A DNA stretch of 64,000 bases from Verrucomicrobium sp. BvORR034 (lineage in GTDB: Bacteria; Verrucomicrobiota; Verrucomicrobiia; Verrucomicrobiales; Verrucomicrobiaceae): the NCBI RefSeq assembly GCF_000739635.1, contig NZ_BATQ01000067.1:62001-126000 (forward strand), in the 5' to 3' direction. Numbering within the stretch: the first letter of the stretch is position 1; every line of letters starts with the position of its first letter. The notes under the pieces are model-generated. The model was not told the DNA's origin and did not search any database. It saw only the letters and a program-made list of their open reading frames with translations. Position numbers and translations under genes: made by a program. Shown piece by piece: positions 29,957 to 45,507 of the stretch.

Positions 29957-30057
29957 CTGGCACCCCTTCAGGGTGCAATCGTTTGTGCGAGATTCCAGGG
30001 GCAGGGCTCGTGAAACTCGCCCGGCCCCTGGCTACCGTCTGGGATGCCTTCGGCATG
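29957..30057 (+). repeat. About 100-bp imperfect direct repeat, copy 1
   Basis: It begins CTGGCACCCCTTCAGGGTGC and ends ATGCCTTCGGCATG. It matches 30548-30647 closely along its whole length, including the shared CAATCGTTTGTGCGAG block and the hairpin at the end. Confidence 0.85.
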
Positions 30058-30132: not shown

Positions 30133-30308
30133 TACTGATCGCGTCGAGAGAGGAGCCAGAACTCAACAGGAAAGGTGGACAAGTCATCGCACCTGGAAGA
30201 GGGGCGAGGGCGTCGATGCTGAAACTGTGCAGGCAAAGGGACCTCGCTGGCATCCCCTCCGGGATGCAATACTCATTTTGATCCTCCGGAGGTGTCAGTC
30301 GCTACGCT

Positions 30309-30348
30309 CCCTCAACCTCCGGCTAAGGGCTTTGATGCCTCCGGCATC
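30309..30348 (+). repeat. Degenerate repeat unit with GATGCC-TCC-GGCATC hairpin
   Basis: It has CTCAACCTCCGGCTAAGG followed by the perfect 6-bp stem hairpin at 30334-30348. It is related to the other units of the cluster but diverged. Confidence 0.6.
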
Positions 30349-30427
30349 GGGAAGCCCGGAGGCAAAAAAGCATGGGAAGGCCTAGTACCTCGAGAGATTT
30401 TTCGCTACTGGGTGGCCATCCTTCCTT

Positions 30428-30547: not shown

Positions 30548-30647
30548 CTGGCGTCCCTTCAGGGGCAATCGTTTGTGCGAGTTTCCTGGGGCTGGGCTCG
30601 TCAAATTCGCCCGACCCCTGGCTGCCTTCTGGGATGCCTTCGGCATG
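30548..30647 (+). repeat. About 100-bp imperfect direct repeat, copy 2
   Basis: The second copy of the 29957-30057 sequence, with a few substitutions and a one-base length difference. Confidence 0.85.
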
Positions 30648-30810
30648 CAACGTTCGTATCGGGAAGGGGGCCAGAAGTTTGAAGCGAGGTTCAGAGGCCA
30701 TGGCGTGGCCGCATTGTGGGATGAGGACCGTAGGGAATGGGAATTTCGTCTCCAGGTAGCTTGGACGGTTTGTTGAACTCCGTTGGAGTTCCAGTGCTAC
30801 TCTATCGATA

Positions 30811-30846
30811 CCCGGGGTGGCGACCGCTTCGCGGTCTGACCCCGGG
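30811..30846. repeat. Large REP-like palindrome
   Basis: CCCGGGG pairs with CCCCGGG, and an inner GACCGC-TTC-GCGGTC stem lies between them. It is flanked at 30776-30790 and 30858-30872 by two smaller hairpins with GTT loops (AACTCC/GGAGTT and CACGCC/GGCGTG). Confidence 0.75.
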
Positions 30847-31163
30847 CTCTTATGTATCACGCCGTTGGCGTGGAGCGCTTGGTGGGAGGTTGATGGCGTT
30901 CCGTACCCCTGAGGGTGAGCATGGCAAAGTACATGGACATCTGAAGGGGATCGAGCATGTGCATGTGCTTGTGCTTGCGAGTATCTGGAACGTGCCGTTT
31001 TCGCCTGCCACGCTGCGAGTCACGACAGTGTCTTGGAGTACGTGCGGCTCGACGCCGCTTTGGTGGCCCTTGTGATTTCCATGTTGTGAACATCGACAAC
31101 AGGGAGGATTGGGCTGCTGCAATTCGTACGCGGCCGTAGTCAAGGCGTGCTGGTTTTTGCTGT

Positions 31164-31334
31164 CCAAGGAGCGGCGGTTTGTGCTTGCACAACCGCCGGA
31201 GTTGGCCGGAGCGGAATTGATCCCAAGTCTGCAAGCAGCAATTGGGCCTCACACGGCAGTCGGGTTTTTGTGGCCAATCGCTCCGCTTCCCATCGGCGGT
31301 TGTGCAAGCGCAAGCACAAACCGCCGCTCCTTGG
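31164..31334. repeat. Spaced inverted repeat with palindromic arms
   Basis: The left arm at 31164-31197 (CCAAGGAGCGGCGGTTTGTG...) and the right arm at 31294-31334 (ending ...CCGCCGCTCCTTGG) are reverse complements, differing by a 6-bp deletion in the left arm. Each arm is itself partly self-complementary around GGCGGTT. The spacer is about 96 bp and has no gene. Confidence 0.8.
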
Positions 31335-31369
31335 TGGTGGGGGGGCGCTCAGGCTTTTGGTGACGCTGC

Positions 31370-33118: not shown

Positions 33119-33865
33119 ATGAGCAAGCTCCTCAATCGAGTCGCAGTAGTTACCGGTGCCGGCCGTGGGATCGGTCGCGCCATCGCAGAACGTTTTGCCG
33201 CAGAAGGCGCCAAGGTTGCCATCGTCAGCCGCACGGAAAACAGTTCCCAAGGAGCCGCCGAGGCCATCAATGCCGCCTATCCCGGAGCCGCGAAGGCTTA
33301 CGCTGTGGACGTGGCCGATGCCGCCGCCGTGCTGGCGATGGGCAAACAGGTGCTGGCCGATCTGGGTAGCGTGGACATTCTGGTGAACAACGCTGGCGTC
33401 ACGCGCGATGGCCTGGCCCTACGCATGAGCGACGAGGATTGGGATGTCGTTCTTAACACCAACCTCAAAGGGGCGTTCAACCTCGTAAAGGCCTTCCAGC
33501 GCTCCATCCTGAAGTCAAAGACCGGGCGCATCATCAACGTGGCCAGCGTCATTGGTTTGATCGGCAATGCTGGCCAGTGCAACTATGCTGCGAGCAAGGC
33601 TGGCCTCATTGGCTTCAGCAAGTCTCTGGCGCGGGAGTTTGCAGGTCGTGCCGTCACTGTCAACGCCATTGCTCCGGGGTTCATCGTCACAGACATGACC
33701 AATGAACTGAACGACGCCCAGAAGGAAGGGGTGCTCAAGCAGATCCCGCTCGCCAGCTTCGGTGAGGCGGTGGACATCGCCAATGCCGCTGCCTTCCTCG
33801 CGAGCGACGAAGCACGCTACATCACGGGCCAGACGCTGGCGGTGGATGGCGGTATGGTGATGTAA
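33119..33865 (+). CDS. fabG: 3-oxoacyl-ACP reductase
   Basis: A protein of 248 aa with the full short-chain dehydrogenase pattern: TGAGRGIGRAIAERF for NADPH binding, NNAGVTRDGLALRM, the catalytic Ser-Tyr-Lys set (NVASVIGLIGN and NYAASKAG), and the C-terminal YITGQTLAVDGGMVM ending typical of FabG. It reduces 3-oxoacyl-ACP in fatty acid synthesis. The ATG at 33119-33121 overlaps no neighbour. No acpP or fabD/fabF gene is adjacent, so it stands alone, and another member of the SDR family cannot be fully excluded. Confidence 0.9.
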   Translation: MSKLLNRVAVVTGAGRGIGRAIAERFAAEGAKVAIVSRTENSSQGAAEAINAAYPGAAKAYAVDVADAAAVLAMGKQVLADLGSVDILVNNAGVTRDGLALRMSDEDWDVVLNTNLKGAFNLVKAFQRSILKSKTGRIINVASVIGLIGNAGQCNYAASKAGLIGFSKSLAREFAGRAVTVNAIAPGFIVTDMTNELNDAQKEGVLKQIPLASFGEAVDIANAAAFLASDEARYITGQTLAVDGGMVM

Positions 33866-33956
33866 AAAGGCCCAGTAATCCGGTAATTCCGCGAACCAGT
33901 AGTCCAGAACCTTAGCAATAAGGCAGTACGGTAGTTTGTCGCGCGGATTGATTTGC

Positions 33957-33988
33957 AAGGGCGGTTGTGTGTAAACGCTGCCGCCCTT
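33957..33988 (+). terminator. Hairpin after fabG, possible terminator
   Basis: AAGGGCGG and CCGCCCTT form an 8-bp stem with a 16-base loop, about 90 bp after fabG. Only a short T run follows, so it is a weak terminator. Confidence 0.45.
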
Positions 33989-34291
33989 TGTGCTGGGTAG
34001 GGAAGTTCAGGAAAGTCCAGGCGTGAATTTGTGTGTTTTTGTTTGCTTCATGCACTTACGCATCGTTTTTTTTGCGAATCGGCGCTGAAGGAATGGTTGG
34101 AGAGGGCGATCTGCAAGTGGTTGTCCATGAATGTGAAAAATTGGCGAGGCGATCCGAAGAGGGGTGGGGTAGTAGCGGTTTGTAAGTATGCCTTAACCAA
34201 CAATGTGTTGACAAACATTGTGTAGGTTGTTCGATGTGAGGGTATATTGATTTGATGCTGGGTGCCGTGCCATTGGGCTTTTGCGCGTGTC
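33989..34291. promoter_or_regulatory. Upstream region of the signalling operon with a 22-bp inverted repeat
   Basis: A gene-free, relatively AT-rich stretch. At 34200-34221 an inverted repeat, ACAATGT-N8-ACATTGT, overlaps a TTGACA (34208-34213) that could be a -35 element. A TATATT follows at 34243-34248, but the spacing is too long for one simple promoter. The repeat could be an operator for the kinase/receiver operon. Confidence 0.5.
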
Positions 34292-36004
34292 ATGAAGGCG
34301 GAATCTAACAGGGACGTTGAAAGCCGATTTGCCCGGCTTGCTGTGGCATTTGAAAACCTAAGGGCTGGAGGGCGGCCGCTTTGTTCGCTGGCAGTCAATT
34401 TGATCGGTCTCGCCTTCAGGGATCTGCCTCACCATGCGGCGGGTGGGCTGATTGTGCCTCAGATCGGGGATGGGGCGGGGCGAGAGCTGGAATTTCTGGT
34501 GGATGACGAAGATATGCTGGAGACGAGGTGCTGCGCGGCCCTGGAGAAGGTGCAGGAGCTTTGGTCGAGGATGGAACTGAAGGAACCTCGGCAGTGCAAG
34601 CTGGATCTGCCGACGGGAGGGGATGCGGTGCTGCTATTGACGCCAGTGGTTTCAGGATTTGACAACCCGATCGGCTGCTTCTGGGTGTTGGTGGATGAAA
34701 AGGTTCTGGAGAAGGCGCAGCCGCGTATCGAGTACGTGGCCACATATGTCTCCCGGGCGGTCAGGGCGGAGAAAGCCTGCGCGGCGATTGAGCAACTGTC
34801 CAGCCAGGACCTTAACGTGCCCAGTTCGTCCAACGCAATTGCTGATGCCGTGGCGGAGGCGGGGCGTCTGGCCTTGGCGGCGGCGGCGGTAGTGGTGTGG
34901 ATTGTGGACAAATCCCGTGGAGCGTTGAAGACACGCGGTTTTGCCCTGGACCCGCCCGGACGGGTGCATCTGGACATGAACATCGGGGAGGGCATTGCTG
35001 GCAAGGCGGTCCAGAACGGGAAACCGGTGATGTTGAATGACCTGCTCGATGAAGACGAACTCAAGGAGAAGAGTTTGGGGGTGGCTCATCACCGGGATCT
35101 GGTGAAGCAGCGGAATTGGCGCGCGGCCATATTTGTACCGCTGGACATTGGTGGGGAGGCTGCGGGGGTGATTGCGGCTTATGCGAAGCGTCAGTTTGGC
35201 TTCTCTGAAATTGATCTACATATTCTACAGGCCTTTGCGAACCGCATGAGCGCGGGGCTGGCCAATGCGGATCGGATCCAGATGCTCACGGAGATGGAGC
35301 GTCGCATCATCCAGGCGGCACCGGCGATTGAGGCAGGAAGGCTGGCACTGGAGAATGTGCATGATGCGATAGAGCAACTCCTGCACGCGCAGAACTATTT
35401 GTCCACGGCGCTATACCAGGCCGCGCGCGGGGTGTCTGGTGTGCCGGAGATTGAGCAAGCCCTTGTGTGCGTGGACAAGGGCAAGAAGAGGATTCACTCT
35501 CTAACGAGGCTGGCCCGATTCAGCGAAGTCAGGAAGACGCGAGTGTCTCTGCGAGAGTTTCTGGACAGGGCAGTGGACCAGGTGAGGAATGAGGCCGCGA
35601 AGATACGGGTGAACGTCGAGGTAAAGTGCCCCCATGCGTGGCGTATTCGCGTGGATGAGGACAAACTGCAGCGGGTCTTTGCCAACCTCTTTGCGAACTC
35701 GCTGTGGTTTCTGGAGCGGGACACTAAGGGGATGCAGAAGCTGATTCGCATATCGGCGGAGCAGGTGGATGAGGGGCTGATGATCAAGTTTTATGACAAC
35801 GGGCCAGGCATCGAGTCCTCCAAACTAGAGCGTGTATTTGACTACCTTTTCACCACGCGGATGCATGAGGGCATGGGACTGGGGTTGGCGATTGTGCGCC
35901 AATTGATCCACGCTCATGGCGGGACTGTGCGGGCGGCTTCCAAGTGGGGCTACCACACGGAGATGATCATCCATCTACCGGGAATGCAGGTCGAGTTTGC
36001 ATAG
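34292..36004 (+). CDS. GAF-domain sensor histidine kinase lacking a canonical H-box
   Basis: A protein of about 570 aa starting at the ATG 34292-34294. Residues about 30-160 look like a weak GAF-like domain and about 180-330 a clear GAF domain (IGEGIAGKAVQNGKPVMLND). No membrane segment is present, so it is cytoplasmic. Residues about 340-420 form the helical linker where the phosphoaccepting histidine should be; the best candidate is His357 in ENVHDAIEQLLHAQ, which lacks the usual H-E/D-x-R/N-x-P pattern. Residues about 450-565 are the HATPase_c domain with NLFANSLWFL, YDNGPGI and GMGLGLAIV. It is first of three tightly packed genes and likely signals to the receiver encoded 24 bp downstream. 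Confidence 0.82.
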   Translation: MKAESNRDVESRFARLAVAFENLRAGGRPLCSLAVNLIGLAFRDLPHHAAGGLIVPQIGDGAGRELEFLVDDEDMLETRCCAALEKVQELWSRMELKEPRQCKLDLPTGGDAVLLLTPVVSGFDNPIGCFWVLVDEKVLEKAQPRIEYVATYVSRAVRAEKACAAIEQLSSQDLNVPSSSNAIADAVAEAGRLALAAAAVVVWIVDKSRGALKTRGFALDPPGRVHLDMNIGEGIAGKAVQNGKPVMLNDLLDEDELKEKSLGVAHHRDLVKQRNWRAAIFVPLDIGGEAAGVIAAYAKRQFGFSEIDLHILQAFANRMSAGLANADRIQMLTEMERRIIQAAPAIEAGRLALENVHDAIEQLLHAQNYLSTALYQAARGVSGVPEIEQALVCVDKGKKRIHSLTRLARFSEVRKTRVSLREFLDRAVDQVRNEAAKIRVNVEVKCPHAWRIRVDEDKLQRVFANLFANSLWFLERDTKGMQKLIRISAEQVDEGLMIKFYDNGPGIESSKLERVFDYLFTTRMHEGMGLGLAIVRQLIHAHGGTVRAASKWGYHTEMIIHLPGMQVEFA

Positions 36005-36028
36005 AAGCATGTTCAGGAGCCTTCGCCT

Positions 36029-37246
36029 ATGAAAAAGAACGAAAGACGACAATTGTTGTGGGTTGATGACCAGATTGCGCAGCTTTCGTCCTTTGTCAGG
36101 GCCCTGGATGAAAACGGGTTTCAGGTAACCACTGCAGACTGTACGGCGACGGCCGTGGCTCTGGCGCGGGAGACTGAGTTCGAGGCCTGCTTGGTAGACA
36201 TCAACATGCCGCCGCCAGATGGGGTTGAGTGCCTGCGGCAGTTGCGTCAGATCTTGCCCAAAACCAGGCTAGCGGTCCTGTCGGGCTATCTTTACCTAGC
36301 GCGATACCAAGCGGAGCTGCGGTCGTTGGGCTTTGATGTGCAGCTGATGGACAAAGACTTTGACAACCCCAGCAGTTCGAAGTTTGACTCGGAGTTCCTT
36401 GCCCCGATCCGGCGGTTGATGGAGGAGGGGGTCACTACCACGATCAAAATCCAGGACGAGGTAGCTATTGAACTGCGGGGCAAGAACCCATTTGACATGC
36501 CGTTGTCAGAGTTCACCGAGCTGCCGTTGGTGGTAAAGGACCAGCTACGCGTGCAAGCGGGCAAAATTGCCCGGAAGACGCTCGACCGGGCATTTGCGGA
36601 AGGGAAGCTCTGGGTGCTGCTGTGCGGGGACCACCAAGTGGTGCGGGCCTATGGTAGCTCTCCGGAAGAGAACTGGGACGAGGAGAGCATGATGGACTTT
36701 GGGCGGATCCAGCAGCGGGTGCCGTTTGTGTTTTGGAATGATGTGGAAGTGGATGACGTGGATATGGCCTGGGCTCCCTGTGGAGACCAGAGTGGAAGGT
36801 CTTTCTACCCCACGGTGACGCTGGCCTTTGCGGGCGACAAGGAGGTGTCGGCCCATTTTGATACGGGGGCACCCATGACGTTTTTCAGCTATGAGGCGTT
36901 GTTGGCCCTCGAACTGATCAAACCCACGACTTTTTGGGCTCCAAAGCGTCGGCTGGGAGCGGACTCCGCGCACTACTGGGCTACGGCTCTCAAGCTTCAA
37001 TGCCTGGTGCGCTGCCAAGGGAATGGAGGGACGGTGGGGGTAGAGATCCGCGGGCAGGCGGTCCGAAATTGGGAGGAGGGACCATTTGCGAGGTTCTGCA
37101 AGCCTACCTGCCCGCTGCGGTTGGAGACTGGAGGGGGGAGGATTCTCTGTCCGGGCCGGAAGGCTTTGGTCGGACGCAACTTGCTAATTGAAAACTCGCT
37201 GACAGTCGTTCTGGACGGTACTAAGCGACTAACCATGTTACAATGA
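36029..37246 (+). CDS. Receiver domain fused to a retropepsin-like aspartic protease domain
   Basis: A protein of 405 aa preceded by a good AGGAG site. Residues 7-130 form a receiver: Asp13-Asp14, phosphoacceptor Asp57 in LVDINMPPPDG, Ser85 and Lys109. There is no DNA-binding output domain. Residues about 165-245 resemble the DUF5678-like module (LWVLLCGDHQVVRAYG). Residues about 258-405 look like a single-domain retropepsin: AHFDTGAPMTFFSYEAL holds the catalytic Asp-Thr-Gly-Ala (278-281), and VGRNLLIENSLTVVLDG matches the second conserved G-R-x-L-L and V-x-L-D elements. The domain pairing is inferred from motif order. The next gene overlaps by 4 bp. Regulated proteolysis is the obvious hypothesis, not shown. 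Confidence 0.75.
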   Translation: MKKNERRQLLWVDDQIAQLSSFVRALDENGFQVTTADCTATAVALARETEFEACLVDINMPPPDGVECLRQLRQILPKTRLAVLSGYLYLARYQAELRSLGFDVQLMDKDFDNPSSSKFDSEFLAPIRRLMEEGVTTTIKIQDEVAIELRGKNPFDMPLSEFTELPLVVKDQLRVQAGKIARKTLDRAFAEGKLWVLLCGDHQVVRAYGSSPEENWDEESMMDFGRIQQRVPFVFWNDVEVDDVDMAWAPCGDQSGRSFYPTVTLAFAGDKEVSAHFDTGAPMTFFSYEALLALELIKPTTFWAPKRRLGADSAHYWATALKLQCLVRCQGNGGTVGVEIRGQAVRNWEEGPFARFCKPTCPLRLETGGGRILCPGRKALVGRNLLIENSLTVVLDGTKRLTMLQ

Positions 37247-37725
37247 AAGAACTGGACATTCTCTTTGGTTTGATCGGTCTCGCTGGTTACGAAGCGTTGC
37301 GCCTCTACAAGAGCTTTATTGCTAGGAGGGCGTTGATTCCCAAGCGGCAAATGAAGGTCTATCTCTTGATCGTGGGAGTGCTGGCGGTTTTTGCGGGGGC
37401 TTGCGCCTACGCGCTCGCAAACGGAAACTTGGCCAACGCCCTCTTCGTGGGCTTCTCTGTGCCGACCGGGATCAGGGCGTTATTATCTCCTGCGCCCGAG
37501 GCCGGGCGTGACAGGAGCGTGGAAGGTGGCAAAAAGTCTGCCAAAGCTCCCAAGACTGGCGCGGACAACAACGAGGTGGAGGTGGATGACTTCGATGTGG
37601 AGGACTCGGAAGATGAGCCGAATCGAGAAGCGGCAGGAAGTCTGGAGTCTGAGGCGATCAAGGAATCGCGTCGCCAAGAGTTGTCCAGCAATGCCAGGGG
37701 TGCGCTGAGAGAGTACTTTCAATAA
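37243..37725 (+). CDS. Small membrane protein with acidic cytoplasmic tail, third gene of the signalling operon
   Basis: A protein of 160 aa whose ATG overlaps the stop of the receiver-protease gene (ATGA). Two hydrophobic segments lie near residues 5-20 and 38-60 (VYLLIVGVLAVFAGACAYAL). The C-terminal half is hydrophilic and acidic (VEVDDFDVEDSEDEPNREAA) and ends in a charged helix-like stretch. No family is recognised. Tight coupling to the kinase and receiver-protease genes suggests a partner, anchor or substrate of the protease. That is inference; no cleavage site can be read from sequence. Confidence 0.65.
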   Translation: MKELDILFGLIGLAGYEALRLYKSFIARRALIPKRQMKVYLLIVGVLAVFAGACAYALANGNLANALFVGFSVPTGIRALLSPAPEAGRDRSVEGGKKSAKAPKTGADNNEVEVDDFDVEDSEDEPNREAAGSLESEAIKESRRQELSSNARGALREYFQ

Positions 37726-37745
37726 TCCAGGGCTTTCAGCTGTGC

Positions 37746-38675
37746 CTAAACTATGTACTCCCGCCACTTGTCGCGCAGGGTCAGGGCGGAACCCAGCCAG
37801 GCGGCGAAGGTGGGGCTGCCGGGAACCACCCAGTGGCCGCTCTGGTCCCAATAGTTCACGGGACTGCTGAGGTCGCCATCGCTTGGGACGACCCAGTAGC
37901 AGGCGTTGGAGGCCATGGCGATAGGATAGAGGCGTGCCTCCTGCAAGGTCGGTATGACGTGCTCCCAGTCGGTGGTGATTTCCTCCAATCCATCCAGCCT
38001 GAGGAACTGGGCGTACTCCCCATCAGGCGATTCTGGTGAAGGGCATGCGAATTCTACTCCGGCCAGCGGGAGCGAGGTCATGAGCTCCTCCCACCAGGTG
38101 GGAACCTGGAGCTGGGGCAGGGTGCGGGCCAGAATCCAGGGTTCGAGGACTTCACCTCGAGATCCGTCTTTTGCGACTGTCTCCAGGAGCAGCCGCAGGG
38201 GACCGGCCACCTCGGGTGGGGCGGTGGCCCACCAGTTGGAGGTGGCGATGGGGTCGGGCTGGGTATCCAGGCTGGCGAGCAGGGCCGCCACCTCGGTGGA
38301 CTTGGTGTACAGGGCGCCGTCCAACGCGGTCTTGCGCCTGCGGTCACGGGCTTTGGGATCAGCGCCCGCCTCCAGAAGGACTTTCACGGCGGGCAGGCTT
38401 CCTTTGAAGGCGGCGTGCATCAAAGCGGTCTCACCGCGGCTGTTGGGGCGGTCCACTTCGGCACCCAGTGTCAACAGGGCCTTGATGGTTTCTGGCTGCC
38501 CTCTGCCTGCAGCATGTTCCAGCAGGGTGGCGCTGGCGCCGTAGTTGGCATCCACGAGGAACTCCTCGCCGGCATCTTGAAGGGCCTTTACAGATTCCAG
38601 GAATTTTTCCACCTTCCCTGTGCGGACGTAGAGTTCCAGGTCGTTTTTGATGCGGGCAATGGAATCGGAAGACAT
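37746..38675 (-). CDS. Ankyrin-repeat protein with possible SMI1/KNR4-like C-terminal region
   Basis: A protein of about 309 aa from the ATG 38673-38675. Residues about 40-140 contain three ankyrin-like repeats with the consensus LLEHAAGRGQPETIKALLTL, GETALMHAAFKGSLPAVKVL and KTALDGALYTKSTEVAALLA. The second half holds a Trp-rich region (EITTDWEHVIPTLQEARLYP) that resembles SUKH (SMI1/KNR4) immunity-type domains in layout, but this match is weak. No signal peptide is seen. It is convergent with the three-gene signalling operon. A role as antitoxin or scaffold is a guess. Confidence 0.7.
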   Translation of the reverse strand: MSSDSIARIKNDLELYVRTGKVEKFLESVKALQDAGEEFLVDANYGASATLLEHAAGRGQPETIKALLTLGAEVDRPNSRGETALMHAAFKGSLPAVKVLLEAGADPKARDRRRKTALDGALYTKSTEVAALLASLDTQPDPIATSNWWATAPPEVAGPLRLLLETVAKDGSRGEVLEPWILARTLPQLQVPTWWEELMTSLPLAGVEFACPSPESPDGEYAQFLRLDGLEEITTDWEHVIPTLQEARLYPIAMASNACYWVVPSDGDLSSPVNYWDQSGHWVVPGSPTFAAWLGSALTLRDKWREYIV

Positions 38676-39011
38676 GGGGTGGGGGGAGTGTGGCAATTAT
38701 AGATGTTCCATGTGCCAAAAATCAAGCAGTGGCTGTGAGGCTCTCTTTGGACATGCGGTTGAGTTTCTCGGGCAGGCGCCGCACACGGCGAGGCTGGATC
38801 CTGTCAACGAACCTTGGTGCCGAAGTGAGCCAGGCCGCCACAACTCCTTCGGAGTAGATTCCCGAACCTCATCTTCCAAACGTAGACTCGCTTGAAGCTC
38901 GTCCAACGTTGGGCTTGTGGCCTCATCCTCTTCGAGGAAGAGCTTCAACTGAGCATTTGCACTGCAAAGTTTACTGGGCCCTGCAGGTCTGGATCATCTC
39001 TTGCACACGCC
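38676..39011. other. Gene-free region between ankyrin gene and cassette protein D
   Basis: About 336 bp with no convincing gene; an 83-codon minus-strand frame at 38697-38948 lacks any protein-like signature. It contains one ACTCC-TTC-GGAGT hairpin (38843-38855) like those in the 30-kb cluster. The end of the long minus-strand cassette transcript falls here. Confidence 0.5.
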
Positions 39012-41238: not shown

Positions 41239-41292
41239 GGGGAATGGCGGTGCTCAAATGAGGGTGGGGGTGCATGAAGTGGGAACAGAAAG

Positions 41293-44200
41293 TCACGGGG
41301 CGAACTGCTTGCGCTGGATGACGCGGAAGCGGTAGTGGTCGTCCAGGGCGGCGGAGGAGTTGCCGGGGTTGGTGATGAAGTTGGGCAGACCGGTGATGTT
41401 GGGATCGAGGTAGCGCTCCAGGATAGCGGAGCCGCGATAGTCGCTGGAGATCGTGTCCCGGGTCTCGTCCCACCGGCTGGCGCTGGTGGAGCGGGACTTG
41501 CGGAGTGCCTGCACGCGATAGTGCACCTGGAAGACATTTGACCGCGTGGTGAGGCGCGGGTAGAGCTGGTTGTACGGCGACTCACGCGTGTTGTCGCCGG
41601 TGAGCTCCATGCCATCCTTCTGGGTGTTCAGGGCGCCGTTCCACCAGTCTGTCATTTCCTCGTACTGTGGATTGCGTGAAGGCTTGCCGCCTGCAGCGGT
41701 GCTGTAGGTGCGGCCCGGGATCATCTGGGGCACGAGGAAGACCTCGCAGATCTCCGAGGCGGAGCGGAACACGTCCTTCTGGGTGTTGAACCGGTGGGTG
41801 AAGGCCTTGAGTGTCTCCGTCACATTCACGTCATAGCTGGTCTCGAACTTCATCCAGTGGCCGGAAGACTTGTAGCACTCCTCCACGCCATTGGTGATGT
41901 CGCGATAGTTGGTCCGGTCGCTGTTTCCCACCCACGCCAGGGAGGCGGGCATGGCTCGTACCCTCACGCTGCGCAGGGCCGCATGCAGCGCGGTGGCCCG
42001 TTGCAAGTAGGTGAAGGGCAGCATCTGGTGGTTCATGTTCACCTTGCCCGCGGTGGAGAAGGGCTCGCTGATGGCGTAGGGCTCCACGATGGGCATCCAG
42101 AAGGAGTCCAGAAGCAGGTGGTCCCGCGGCAGCGTGAAACCGAAGTGATCTGCTGCGACAGGCTGCTGAAGCGCCAGGGTGCTGCGGGAGTGGGGGTTGG
42201 GGCAGAACAGGAGCGTCTGCCAGGGGCGGGAGACGGGGGTGGTGGCATTCCCAAGCACACCACTGGGCAGCGAGCCAAAAGCCACGGCAGAGGCGATCTG
42301 CCGGTTGGGGGAGTAGGCCTTGCCGCTGTCCTCGGCGAATCCGCCACGCTCGAAGTACTTGTTGGCACTGCCATCGTAGCCGCCTTCATCCGGCTTGTTG
42401 ATGTAAGCGCCGTCCTCCACCCGGCCGATGCCGTTGTCCCAGTCGCCCGGACGGTTCAAGGAATTGTAGGCCCCGTTGAGCTTGATGGGGCCCGCAGGCT
42501 GGCAGTCCTGCCAGTAGAAGACGTCCCTCAGCAGACCATAGGGCTTGGTGCTGGAGAGGTTGGGGGAGGAGCCGGTCCACTCCCAACCGGCCGTCTGCCA
42601 GGAGTGCTGGGCTCCATCGGCAATGCTGTCGAAGTAGCCCGGTGCGACGATGTTGGGGTGGCCGTAGTGGCCGGTATGGGTCTTGGAGGCGAGACGCAAG
42701 CTCTGGGCCTCGTACACGAAGCTGCCTTTGGTACCGTCGGCATCGTAGAAGTATTCTGGATGGGGCTTGAAGTGGTCGGCTGTCACCAACGCCTTGGCGG
42801 TGATGATGCGGTAGTCTCCGCCGCTGGGAGAGGTGGGGGAGGAATTGACGACGACGGAGCGAATGACGTCGCCGGGGCGGGTCACTTCTGACTGGAAGCT
42901 CCCCTGGTCGATGCGGCGCTGCAGCCCCATGAGCGGCGTATCCTTCCACTCACCGAGATAGAGTCGAGGGGTGCGCAACTTCACGGTGGGGAACCGCATC
43001 TTGATCGTCTGAAGAGGAGTGTCATTGGGGCCAGGTGCAGGACCATACCCGGAGTAGATCTTGATCGTGATCTCCTGGTTCGATCCGTCATCGCCGGGAC
43101 TACCGGGAAAGGTGAAGGTGCCCTGGTTGGGGTCCACGGGGATTTCCCGGCCGATGAAGGGGTAGCAATTGCCCTCGTTGGGCGAGCCCACAAACTCGCG
43201 GGGCAGTTTGTCCATGATGATCGCCTGCAGTCCGGTGTAGGAGGTCATGTGGGCATTTTCATCGGTGCTCCCATTGGAGCGCTCCGTGCGAAGGGTGTTC
43301 AACGTGCCGATGTCGGCGAACATTGCGGTGGTGCCATTGACCTTCCAGGTCTCCAGCCCCTCGATCCGGTAGCGGATGTTGGCGCTGTAGGGAGGCATGC
43401 CCACCACCGGGGTGAAGGGCTGGATCATGAGGTAGGGCCGCATCTTGACGGTTCGGTCTGCCCACTTCTGCCCCGGGCCGTCTGGCGGCGTCCAGGTGGG
43501 GCCGCTGTCAGCGTAGAGATTGGTCACGCCTTCGAACTTGGCCTTGTTCACCTCGATGGTATCGAAGCTGTCGCGCAGGACGGTGTTGTTCTTGGCCTTG
43601 ATCTCTGTGGGCATGAAGACGACGGCCACCTCCACGACGGTGGGCCAGCGGCCGAATGCCTTGAGCCCATCGGGTGGCACGGCTCCGCCATCTGGCAGGG
43701 TGCTTACCTTTGTCGGCAGGGCGGAGCATTCGCCCACCCAGCCGCCGGATGGTCTCACATAGGCCCGCGGGGGGACGTAGGCATAGCTCTTCGTGAAATC
43801 AATCGCCCCGCCAGCGCCGCGTTCCGCGTACCAGGAGTTCACCCCCCAACGTTGCAGGTCGAACATTTGCAGGAGGATCTGGTTGCGGTTCAGCTCGCCA
43901 TACTTGGTGACAAAGGTGTCGGTGCCAAAGCCGGGCACGGGTTTGGCGGTGAGGGACTGAAGGTACGAGAAGAGCTGCTGGTTGTGTTGCAGGTTGAAGT
44001 CCGCATCCGGGCTTTGCGATGAGCCTGGGTTCGAATCGGAAACCCATTTCTGGGCGCGATACCAGGCGGCGGTCTGCCCGGATGAAGTGGCTGCGAAGGC
44101 TATGAGGCGGTCTTTGGGGTTGCGGGTGTTCGGGTCCGCAAAGAGGGGCCAGAGACAAATGCGAGGCCGGTTGAAGAGATTGGTCTCTGGTGCGCGGCTG

Positions 44201-45507
44201 TGCGCCGTGAGGAAGGCGCGGGCCATGCGGATTTCATTGCCATCCACGCGGCTGGCGGAGTCATTGGGCAGGCGCTGGCCGGAGCCGTTCAGGTTCGAGG
44301 CATAAAAGAACTCATCCACGGAGGCGAAGATGCGCTCCGCCTTCACGGGAAGCCCGGTGTCCACCGTGACGGCGGTGGTTCCCGCGCGGGAGCTCTGCCC
44401 CAAGTCGCCCCAGTTGGTACGGGGCAGCATTTCGTACAGGTTTTTGAAATAATCTGTGCTGGCATAGGTGGCCTCGCCCGTGCCGGCGGTGTAGGCGGAG
44501 CTCATCTGCTGGGTGAGGCGGGTGAAGGCGGGGTCGAAGCTCTTCATCACGGTGCTCAGACAGGTCATGGCGGGATGTCCGGGGAAGCGTTGGAATTCAT
44601 TCTGGCCGGGCATGAACTTGGCCCAGTTCTGGTCCTGCCAGGAGGTGCCCACCGGCACGTCCCAGGGCACCCCTTCACTGGCGGTGTTGATGTTCACCTT
44701 GCAGGACTCGTCATCCGTCCAGAAGGCGATGCGGCCGGTGATGGGATTGGCGGTGGTGACCACGGATGAATCAAAGAGAGCCTCGCCATTCTGCTCGCCG
44801 CTGGGCACGACCAGCCGTCCGTCCTCGCACACATACATCCAGCGTACGGGCATGGGCAGCGGGTGCGAGGCGTCGGTGCCGGGGAGGGCTGAAAGGATGC
44901 GGGCACCGTCGATTCGTCCATCGCTGCTGCCGACAAGGTCAGCCACACCATCGGAGTTGGAGTCGAAGACACTCACGTCCATGATGGGGAATGTCTTCCT
45001 GAGGATGGTCTGCGTGCCGGAAGGAAGAGGGGTGACTACAGGTTCGTTGAGGTCTGTGAAGTGGGCCTTTTTGGTCTCCCATCCCGTCAGACCTGCCGCT
45101 TCCGTCGTGGAGTCAAAGGCAGCTCCGGCCACCATGGCATCCGAGGAGTAGAGCCGATAAGCCTGGATGAGGCTGGCGCGATTCGATGGGCCAGGTGCGG
45201 TGCCGAACACCCGGATCATGCCTGGCTGGGAGGTCCACGACTTGCCATCACCCAATCCGGAAGTTGCCTGCCGGATCTGGCCCATCACCACATTTACCGG
45301 TAGATCCGCCAGGGTGCGCACATCAGTGATGCGGGCGTACGATGATGAAGCGCGCGTTTCCGTGCGACTCATGGAGAGCACAGCAAGCACGAGCACCATG
45401 AGCAGCGCCAGCACGCAGAGCACGGAGATCAAGGCCATGCCTGACGAGGTTCTTTGCTGCGCCCGCATATTGCTACCAGTGGTAGTGATGGACTGCTCCA
45501 GGTTCAT
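41293..45507 (-). CDS. Verru_Chthon cassette protein A (large GspK-like component)
   Basis: A protein of 1404 aa. A hydrophobic segment near residues 24-46 has the pseudopilin-like GMALISVLCVLALLMVLVLA without a Glu5, as in GspK proteins that cap the pseudopilus tip. The long soluble part contains many Ser/Thr-Gly stretches and the Trp-rich sequence EEMTDWWNGALNTQ, with no catalytic motif recognised. It is the first and largest gene of the cassette and lies 179 bp after the PEP-CTERM protein gene. It probably forms the tip or core of a pseudopilus-like assembly; this is inference from the N-terminus and gene set. Confidence 0.85.
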   Translation of the reverse strand: MNLEQSITTTGSNMRAQQRTSSGMALISVLCVLALLMVLVLAVLSMSRTETRASSSYARITDVRTLADLPVNVVMGQIRQATSGLGDGKSWTSQPGMIRVFGTAPGPSNRASLIQAYRLYSSDAMVAGAAFDSTTEAAGLTGWETKKAHFTDLNEPVVTPLPSGTQTILRKTFPIMDVSVFDSNSDGVADLVGSSDGRIDGARILSALPGTDASHPLPMPVRWMYVCEDGRLVVPSGEQNGEALFDSSVVTTANPITGRIAFWTDDESCKVNINTASEGVPWDVPVGTSWQDQNWAKFMPGQNEFQRFPGHPAMTCLSTVMKSFDPAFTRLTQQMSSAYTAGTGEATYASTDYFKNLYEMLPRTNWGDLGQSSRAGTTAVTVDTGLPVKAERIFASVDEFFYASNLNGSGQRLPNDSASRVDGNEIRMARAFLTAHSRAPETNLFNRPRICLWPLFADPNTRNPKDRLIAFAATSSGQTAAWYRAQKWVSDSNPGSSQSPDADFNLQHNQQLFSYLQSLTAKPVPGFGTDTFVTKYGELNRNQILLQMFDLQRWGVNSWYAERGAGGAIDFTKSYAYVPPRAYVRPSGGWVGECSALPTKVSTLPDGGAVPPDGLKAFGRWPTVVEVAVVFMPTEIKAKNNTVLRDSFDTIEVNKAKFEGVTNLYADSGPTWTPPDGPGQKWADRTVKMRPYLMIQPFTPVVGMPPYSANIRYRIEGLETWKVNGTTAMFADIGTLNTLRTERSNGSTDENAHMTSYTGLQAIIMDKLPREFVGSPNEGNCYPFIGREIPVDPNQGTFTFPGSPGDDGSNQEITIKIYSGYGPAPGPNDTPLQTIKMRFPTVKLRTPRLYLGEWKDTPLMGLQRRIDQGSFQSEVTRPGDVIRSVVVNSSPTSPSGGDYRIITAKALVTADHFKPHPEYFYDADGTKGSFVYEAQSLRLASKTHTGHYGHPNIVAPGYFDSIADGAQHSWQTAGWEWTGSSPNLSSTKPYGLLRDVFYWQDCQPAGPIKLNGAYNSLNRPGDWDNGIGRVEDGAYINKPDEGGYDGSANKYFERGGFAEDSGKAYSPNRQIASAVAFGSLPSGVLGNATTPVSRPWQTLLFCPNPHSRSTLALQQPVAADHFGFTLPRDHLLLDSFWMPIVEPYAISEPFSTAGKVNMNHQMLPFTYLQRATALHAALRSVRVRAMPASLAWVGNSDRTNYRDITNGVEECYKSSGHWMKFETSYDVNVTETLKAFTHRFNTQKDVFRSASEICEVFLVPQMIPGRTYSTAAGGKPSRNPQYEEMTDWWNGALNTQKDGMELTGDNTRESPYNQLYPRLTTRSNVFQVHYRVQALRKSRSTSASRWDETRDTISSDYRGSAILERYLDPNITGLPNFITNPGNSSAALDDHYRFRVIQRKQFAP

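Follow-up and report, generated by a model that had tools for sequence, protein, structure and literature searches.

A probable retropepsin-like output domain in an orphan two-component cassette

Response regulators are known mostly for outputs that act on DNA, on second messengers or on partner proteins. Those with enzymatic outputs resemble the locus described here in coupling a receiver, served by a partner kinase, to an enzyme-like domain, but no retropepsin-type output was found among them in the literature searched. More generally, our searches, which covered few subscription journals and are therefore weak evidence, returned no described protein pairing a receiver with a retropepsin or aspartic protease, in agreement with a sequence-only reading of this DNA, which knew of no described system of such architecture. 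Signal-controlled aspartic proteolysis does have a precedent in SpoIIGA of Bacillus, a membrane-embedded protein without a receiver domain. SpoIIGA is a signal-transducing aspartic protease that cuts a regulator, pro-sigma-E, and its activator is SpoIIR, not a kinase (PMC7593790).

Two further groups of bacterial enzymes are close to the present case. RimB is a cytoplasmic retropepsin-like protease of Pseudomonas which works with RimK on a polyglutamylated ribosomal protein; it is comparable to the probable protease described here as an aspartic protease of the bacterial cytoplasm that has a DTG motif, has been modelled as a dimer and plays a regulatory part, whereas the accessible part of its description mentions no receiver or two-component control (PMC11957791). 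RloA and RloA2 are secreted retropepsins of Pseudomonas, and RloA2 is encoded in a predicted operon with the CreBC two-component system (PMC12239564). RloA forms dimers with the active-site aspartates at the interface, and an alanine after DTG is typical of retropepsins rather than pepsins (PMC12239564). These proteins are thus dimeric retropepsins of the DTGA type, with RloA2 placed beside a two-component system, but they are secreted as separate proteins and are not the output domain of a response regulator. The substrates of both RimB (PMC11957791) and RloA (PMC12239564) are rich in glutamate. RloA required at least eight consecutive Glu residues, and left a mixed Asp/Glu stretch uncut; in its model, acidic peptides are held by conserved basic residues (PMC12239564).

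Ordinary retropepsins are common in relatives of the strain analysed here, PF13650 being present in 39 of 57 sampled genomes. At the profile level, the retropepsins of the same order (PF13650/PF13975) and the regulator described below probably have a fold family in common. Many of the retropepsins examined start with lipoprotein- or signal-type N-termini, unlike the regulator, which is headed by a receiver. A regular expression that recognises the receiver of the present regulator found a receiver-like motif in none of 50 retropepsin frames from relatives, a set that includes some redundancy.

The window (the whole 64-kb stretch of DNA that was analysed, from a Verrucomicrobium-type bacterium) contains an operon of three + strand genes between positions 34292 and 37725, encoding a kinase, a receiver protein and a small membrane protein. 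Gene order and spacing were as the sequence-only reading had given them, with a 24-bp gap between kinase and regulator genes and a 4-bp overlap between the genes for the regulator and the membrane protein. The features discussed are as follows.

34292-36004, + strand: GAF sensor histidine kinase, 570 aa, predicted cytoplasmic, with GAF_2 and HATPase_c domains
36029-37246, + strand: response regulator, 405 aa, with a receiver, a middle region without family and a retropepsin-like C-terminal region
36029-36388, + strand: receiver domain (Pfam Response_reg, E 5.5e-12)
36419-36799, + strand: middle region, residues 131-257, no family
36800-37243, + strand: retropepsin-like region, residues 258-405, recognised by a sub-threshold PF13650 match and by profile comparison with shuffled sequences
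36860-36871, + strand: DTGA catalytic-type motif, residues 278-281
37001-37150, + strand: stretch with five cysteines (C325, C329, C357, C361 and C374) between the two protease motifs
37172-37186, + strand: GRNLL motif, residues 382-386, in a hydrophobic-hydrophobic-Gly segment of the kind that typically ends a retropepsin
37243-37725, + strand: membrane protein, 160 aa, no family, candidate substrate or partner
37351-37416, + strand: main hydrophobic segment of the membrane protein, residues 37-58, mean hydropathy up to 2.27
37561-37677, + strand: acidic tail segment of the membrane protein, residues 107-145, 15 D/E and 4 K/R
33908-37752, no strand assigned: strain-specific insert, a stretch that a same-genus genome lacks at the equivalent site

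The kinase contains a GAF domain at residues 181-322 (Pfam GAF_2, E 4.8e-15) and a HATPase_c domain (Pfam, E 8.8e-21). All kinase motifs were located, comprising a plausible H-box and the N, G1, F and G2 boxes; the Pfam HisKA model was not matched, and the phosphoacceptor H357 was assigned by motif. The protein therefore has the elements of a two-component kinase. Two GAF domains had been proposed from the sequence. One was recognised, and the other is only plausible by eye, since residues 1-178 matched no Pfam or NCBIfam family. No full-length relative of the kinase was found among 368 genomes of the phylum.

The residue set that defines a response regulator is complete in the receiver (acidic pair D13/D14, phospho-Asp D57, S85 and K109). 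The middle region (residues 131-257) gave no Pfam match up to E 10 and no PHROGs match. In the known DUF5678-retropepsin proteins, a DUF5678 domain stands ahead of the protease; the regulator could not be assigned to this group, as DUF5678 was matched neither in residues 131-257 nor anywhere in the strain's own genome. Searches with the full-length regulator returned only receivers, and no sequence match was found among solved structures.

Both short motifs of retropepsins (clan AA, family A2) were found in the C-terminal region, DTGA at the residues read from the sequence beforehand. The D-T/S-G-A/S signature follows a hydrophobic residue (F277-D278-T-G-A281), and the hydrophobic-hydrophobic-Gly segment near the C-terminus reads L380-V381-G382-R-N-L-L, as part of a VGRNLL...VVLD sequence at residues 381-396. 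Around DTGA, the Pfam family Asp_protease_2 (PF13650) was matched at E 0.029 as a domain and at E 0.0049 with a piece of 50 residues, the scores of 15.5-18.0 bits remaining below the curated cut-off of 24.3; no curated family threshold was reached. Comparison with a retropepsin profile of relatives by hhalign gave a probability of 59% (P 9.5e-5). AlphaFold, run on the single sequence with no relatives to align, returned a mean pLDDT of 33.0 for the whole regulator and 31.7 for residues 254-405.

The C-terminal region could instead be an unrelated, fast-evolving and beta-rich output domain in which the motif match is coincidental. The match below every curated cut-off and the lack of homologues in the collections searched are consistent with this explanation. 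DTGA by itself is weak evidence and does not go beyond chance, since FDTGAxxTF was also present in 19 long frames of viral contigs, none of them recognised as a retropepsin. The wider context of the motif argues against a coincidence. Scored against a profile made from the retropepsin domains of relatives (28 in all), the C-terminal region reached 14.1 bits, a value attained by 0 of 5,000 full shuffles and by 1 of 5,000 shuffles that preserved FDTGA; an earlier, smaller profile gave an equal rank against full shuffles. The flanks therefore add evidence beyond DTGA, as 4,999 of the motif-keeping shuffles scored lower than the real region. The late motif LVGRNLL was found in 3 of 10,000 shuffled tails (0.03%), a figure that is optimistic because the pattern was written after the sequence had been seen; a looser pattern occurred in 5.7%. 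We consider coincidence an unlikely explanation for the resemblance.

Collectively, the two motifs and their profile context exceed chance. By judgement rather than computation, a retropepsin-type fold is quite likely in the C-terminus of the regulator. The proposal that a retropepsin-like domain is the output of the receiver thus stands as probable on motif and profile statistics, short of the curated Pfam level. The region also has features of its own. The aspartate of the first motif and the glycine of the second are 104 residues apart, against 72-83 in the retropepsins of relatives, and the five cysteines between them, which include two CxxxC pairs, may bind metal, form disulphides or make a redox site.

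The small membrane protein matched no known family. Its acidic tail is as described from the sequence; the two membrane segments claimed were replaced by a less clear picture, with one strong hydrophobic segment and two weaker ones at residues 4-22 and 64-82. No relative was found in 96 related genomes, plasmids or viral contigs, and two weak matches (L049 and L050) were rejected as lying in unrelated genes or frames. The protein is a natural candidate substrate or partner of the regulator, the one tie between the two being gene order.

The reading we prefer, tentatively, is that of a two-component system with regulated proteolysis as its probable output, in which the membrane protein is cut or acted on. 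The tight operon layout and the complete catalytic sets of kinase and receiver are in favour of it, as is the resemblance to retropepsins in motif and profile. The sub-threshold family scores and the long, five-cysteine spacing between the two protease motifs weigh against it. The GAF kinase, predicted to be cytoplasmic, would sense an internal signal and phosphorylate D57 of the receiver. It is common for phosphorylated receivers to pair differently. Modification of D57 could alter receiver pairing so that two retropepsin-like domains meet, and this pairing would build an active site, as each domain would supply one catalytic aspartate (D278). By analogy, the dimers of RloA with their interface aspartates, taken together with receiver pairing on phosphorylation, suggest such an assembly switch. 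The active dimer would then cut or act on the co-encoded membrane protein, whose exposed acidic tail would be the most plausible site. This tail is only a loose hint of a substrate, since RloA needs eight Glu in a row and the tail of the small protein has no such run. What was observed is the gene layout, the intact kinase and receiver residues, the resemblance to retropepsins in motif and profile, and the strain-restricted presence; catalytic activity, pairing driven by phosphorylation, the identity of the substrate and any advantage for the cell are inferred. In its most specific form, a kinase-controlled aspartic protease with a two-chain site assembled by receiver pairing would clip the acidic tail of a co-encoded membrane effector and thereby free or remodel it, making this accessory cassette a phosphorylation-triggered membrane switch or a self-inactivation device; so detailed a version is quite improbable.

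The regulator might also be a phosphorylation-controlled protease with its target elsewhere, for example a regulator or an anti-sigma-like protein, leaving the membrane protein to act as an anchor or inhibitor, or as an effector with no connection to it. The retropepsin profile and Pfam evidence holds equally for this explanation, and the membrane protein, having no known family, fits it as well. The 4-bp overlap speaks against it: it implies translational coupling of both products and so favours a direct partnership, and we find a target elsewhere improbable. A retropepsin-type fold that no longer cuts, and instead places the regulator on the membrane protein by dimerising or by binding peptides, would suit both the elongated, five-cysteine region between the motifs, which differs from the enzymes of relatives, and the acidic-peptide binding modelled for RloA (PMC12239564), but it is very unlikely; D-T-G-A is intact, and a domain that had ceased to cut should show an eroded motif.

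If the preferred reading of regulated proteolysis is true, a receiver-controlled, obligate-dimer protease would convert phosphorylation into irreversible proteolysis very directly, and the little-studied bacterial retropepsins would gain a clear upstream signal. Regulated proteolysis is also easily testable here, since the genes for the candidate substrate and for the protein with both key residues, D57 and D278, are neighbours.

The distribution of the cassette was examined in several collections. The C-terminal 275 residues of the regulator had no convincing match beyond the window in three overlapping samples, with 289 genomes from the order, 388 from the phylum and 384 from the class, nor in plasmid, phage and viral-contig collections, where the scan of viral contigs by exact peptides reaches close relatives only. 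Degenerate motif patterns of the regulator retrieved no relative from viral contigs; they were derived from an alignment with artificial, partly randomised rows and served as a search aid, not as evidence. Several weak matches were rejected. Those to the C-terminal region with E values of 0.004-0.05 were attributed to chance, no DTGA-type motif being present in the loci scanned; later ones (L118-L122) were likewise attributed to chance, as judged by short matches and in-frame stops alone. A match in a Nitrospirae contig, obtained in the genome-contig scan, was an unrelated receiver. The Verrucomicrobiota samples yielded no second copy of the cassette and no orthologue in which D278 could be compared. 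The cassette is thus a regulatory orphan in the collections searched, its output probably of a new type, a claim limited by its single copy.

The cassette is flanked by fabG (33119-33865) on one side and, on the other, by an ankyrin-repeat gene that converges on it (37746-38696, minus strand), both names having been read off the sequences by eye. In the same-genus genome G003, the homologues of window positions 33907 and 37753 are only 59 bp apart, about 3.8 kb being missing, and in a second one, G002, the cassette is absent together with the ankyrin-repeat gene. The most fitting reading is therefore that this strain gained the cassette, on the strength of only two good same-genus genomes. The variability of the ankyrin-repeat gene, kept in G003 and gone in G002, suggests that the site downstream of fabG is prone to change. 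The G+C content of the insert is slightly lower than that of the window (0.56-0.59 vs 0.60), and its ends carry no long or obvious repeats. No tRNA genes were found in the window, and Rfam gave no match between positions 30000 and 40000.

Repeated DNA was observed elsewhere in the window. A high-copy repeat, apparently intergenic, occurs at 30222-30361, 30747-30877, 31159-31335 and 38780-38965; its units of about 110-185 bp, found in both orientations and with about 75-94% identity, have many copies in all three large same-genus genomes. An 86-nt direct repeat is present at 29972-30057 and 30562-30647, the two copies being 90% identical and 590 bp apart. A large minus-strand gene at 41293-45507 lies within a block holding pilin-like genes, and one part (about 41292-42549) recurs in the same genus as numerous paralogous copies with 65-70% DNA identity.
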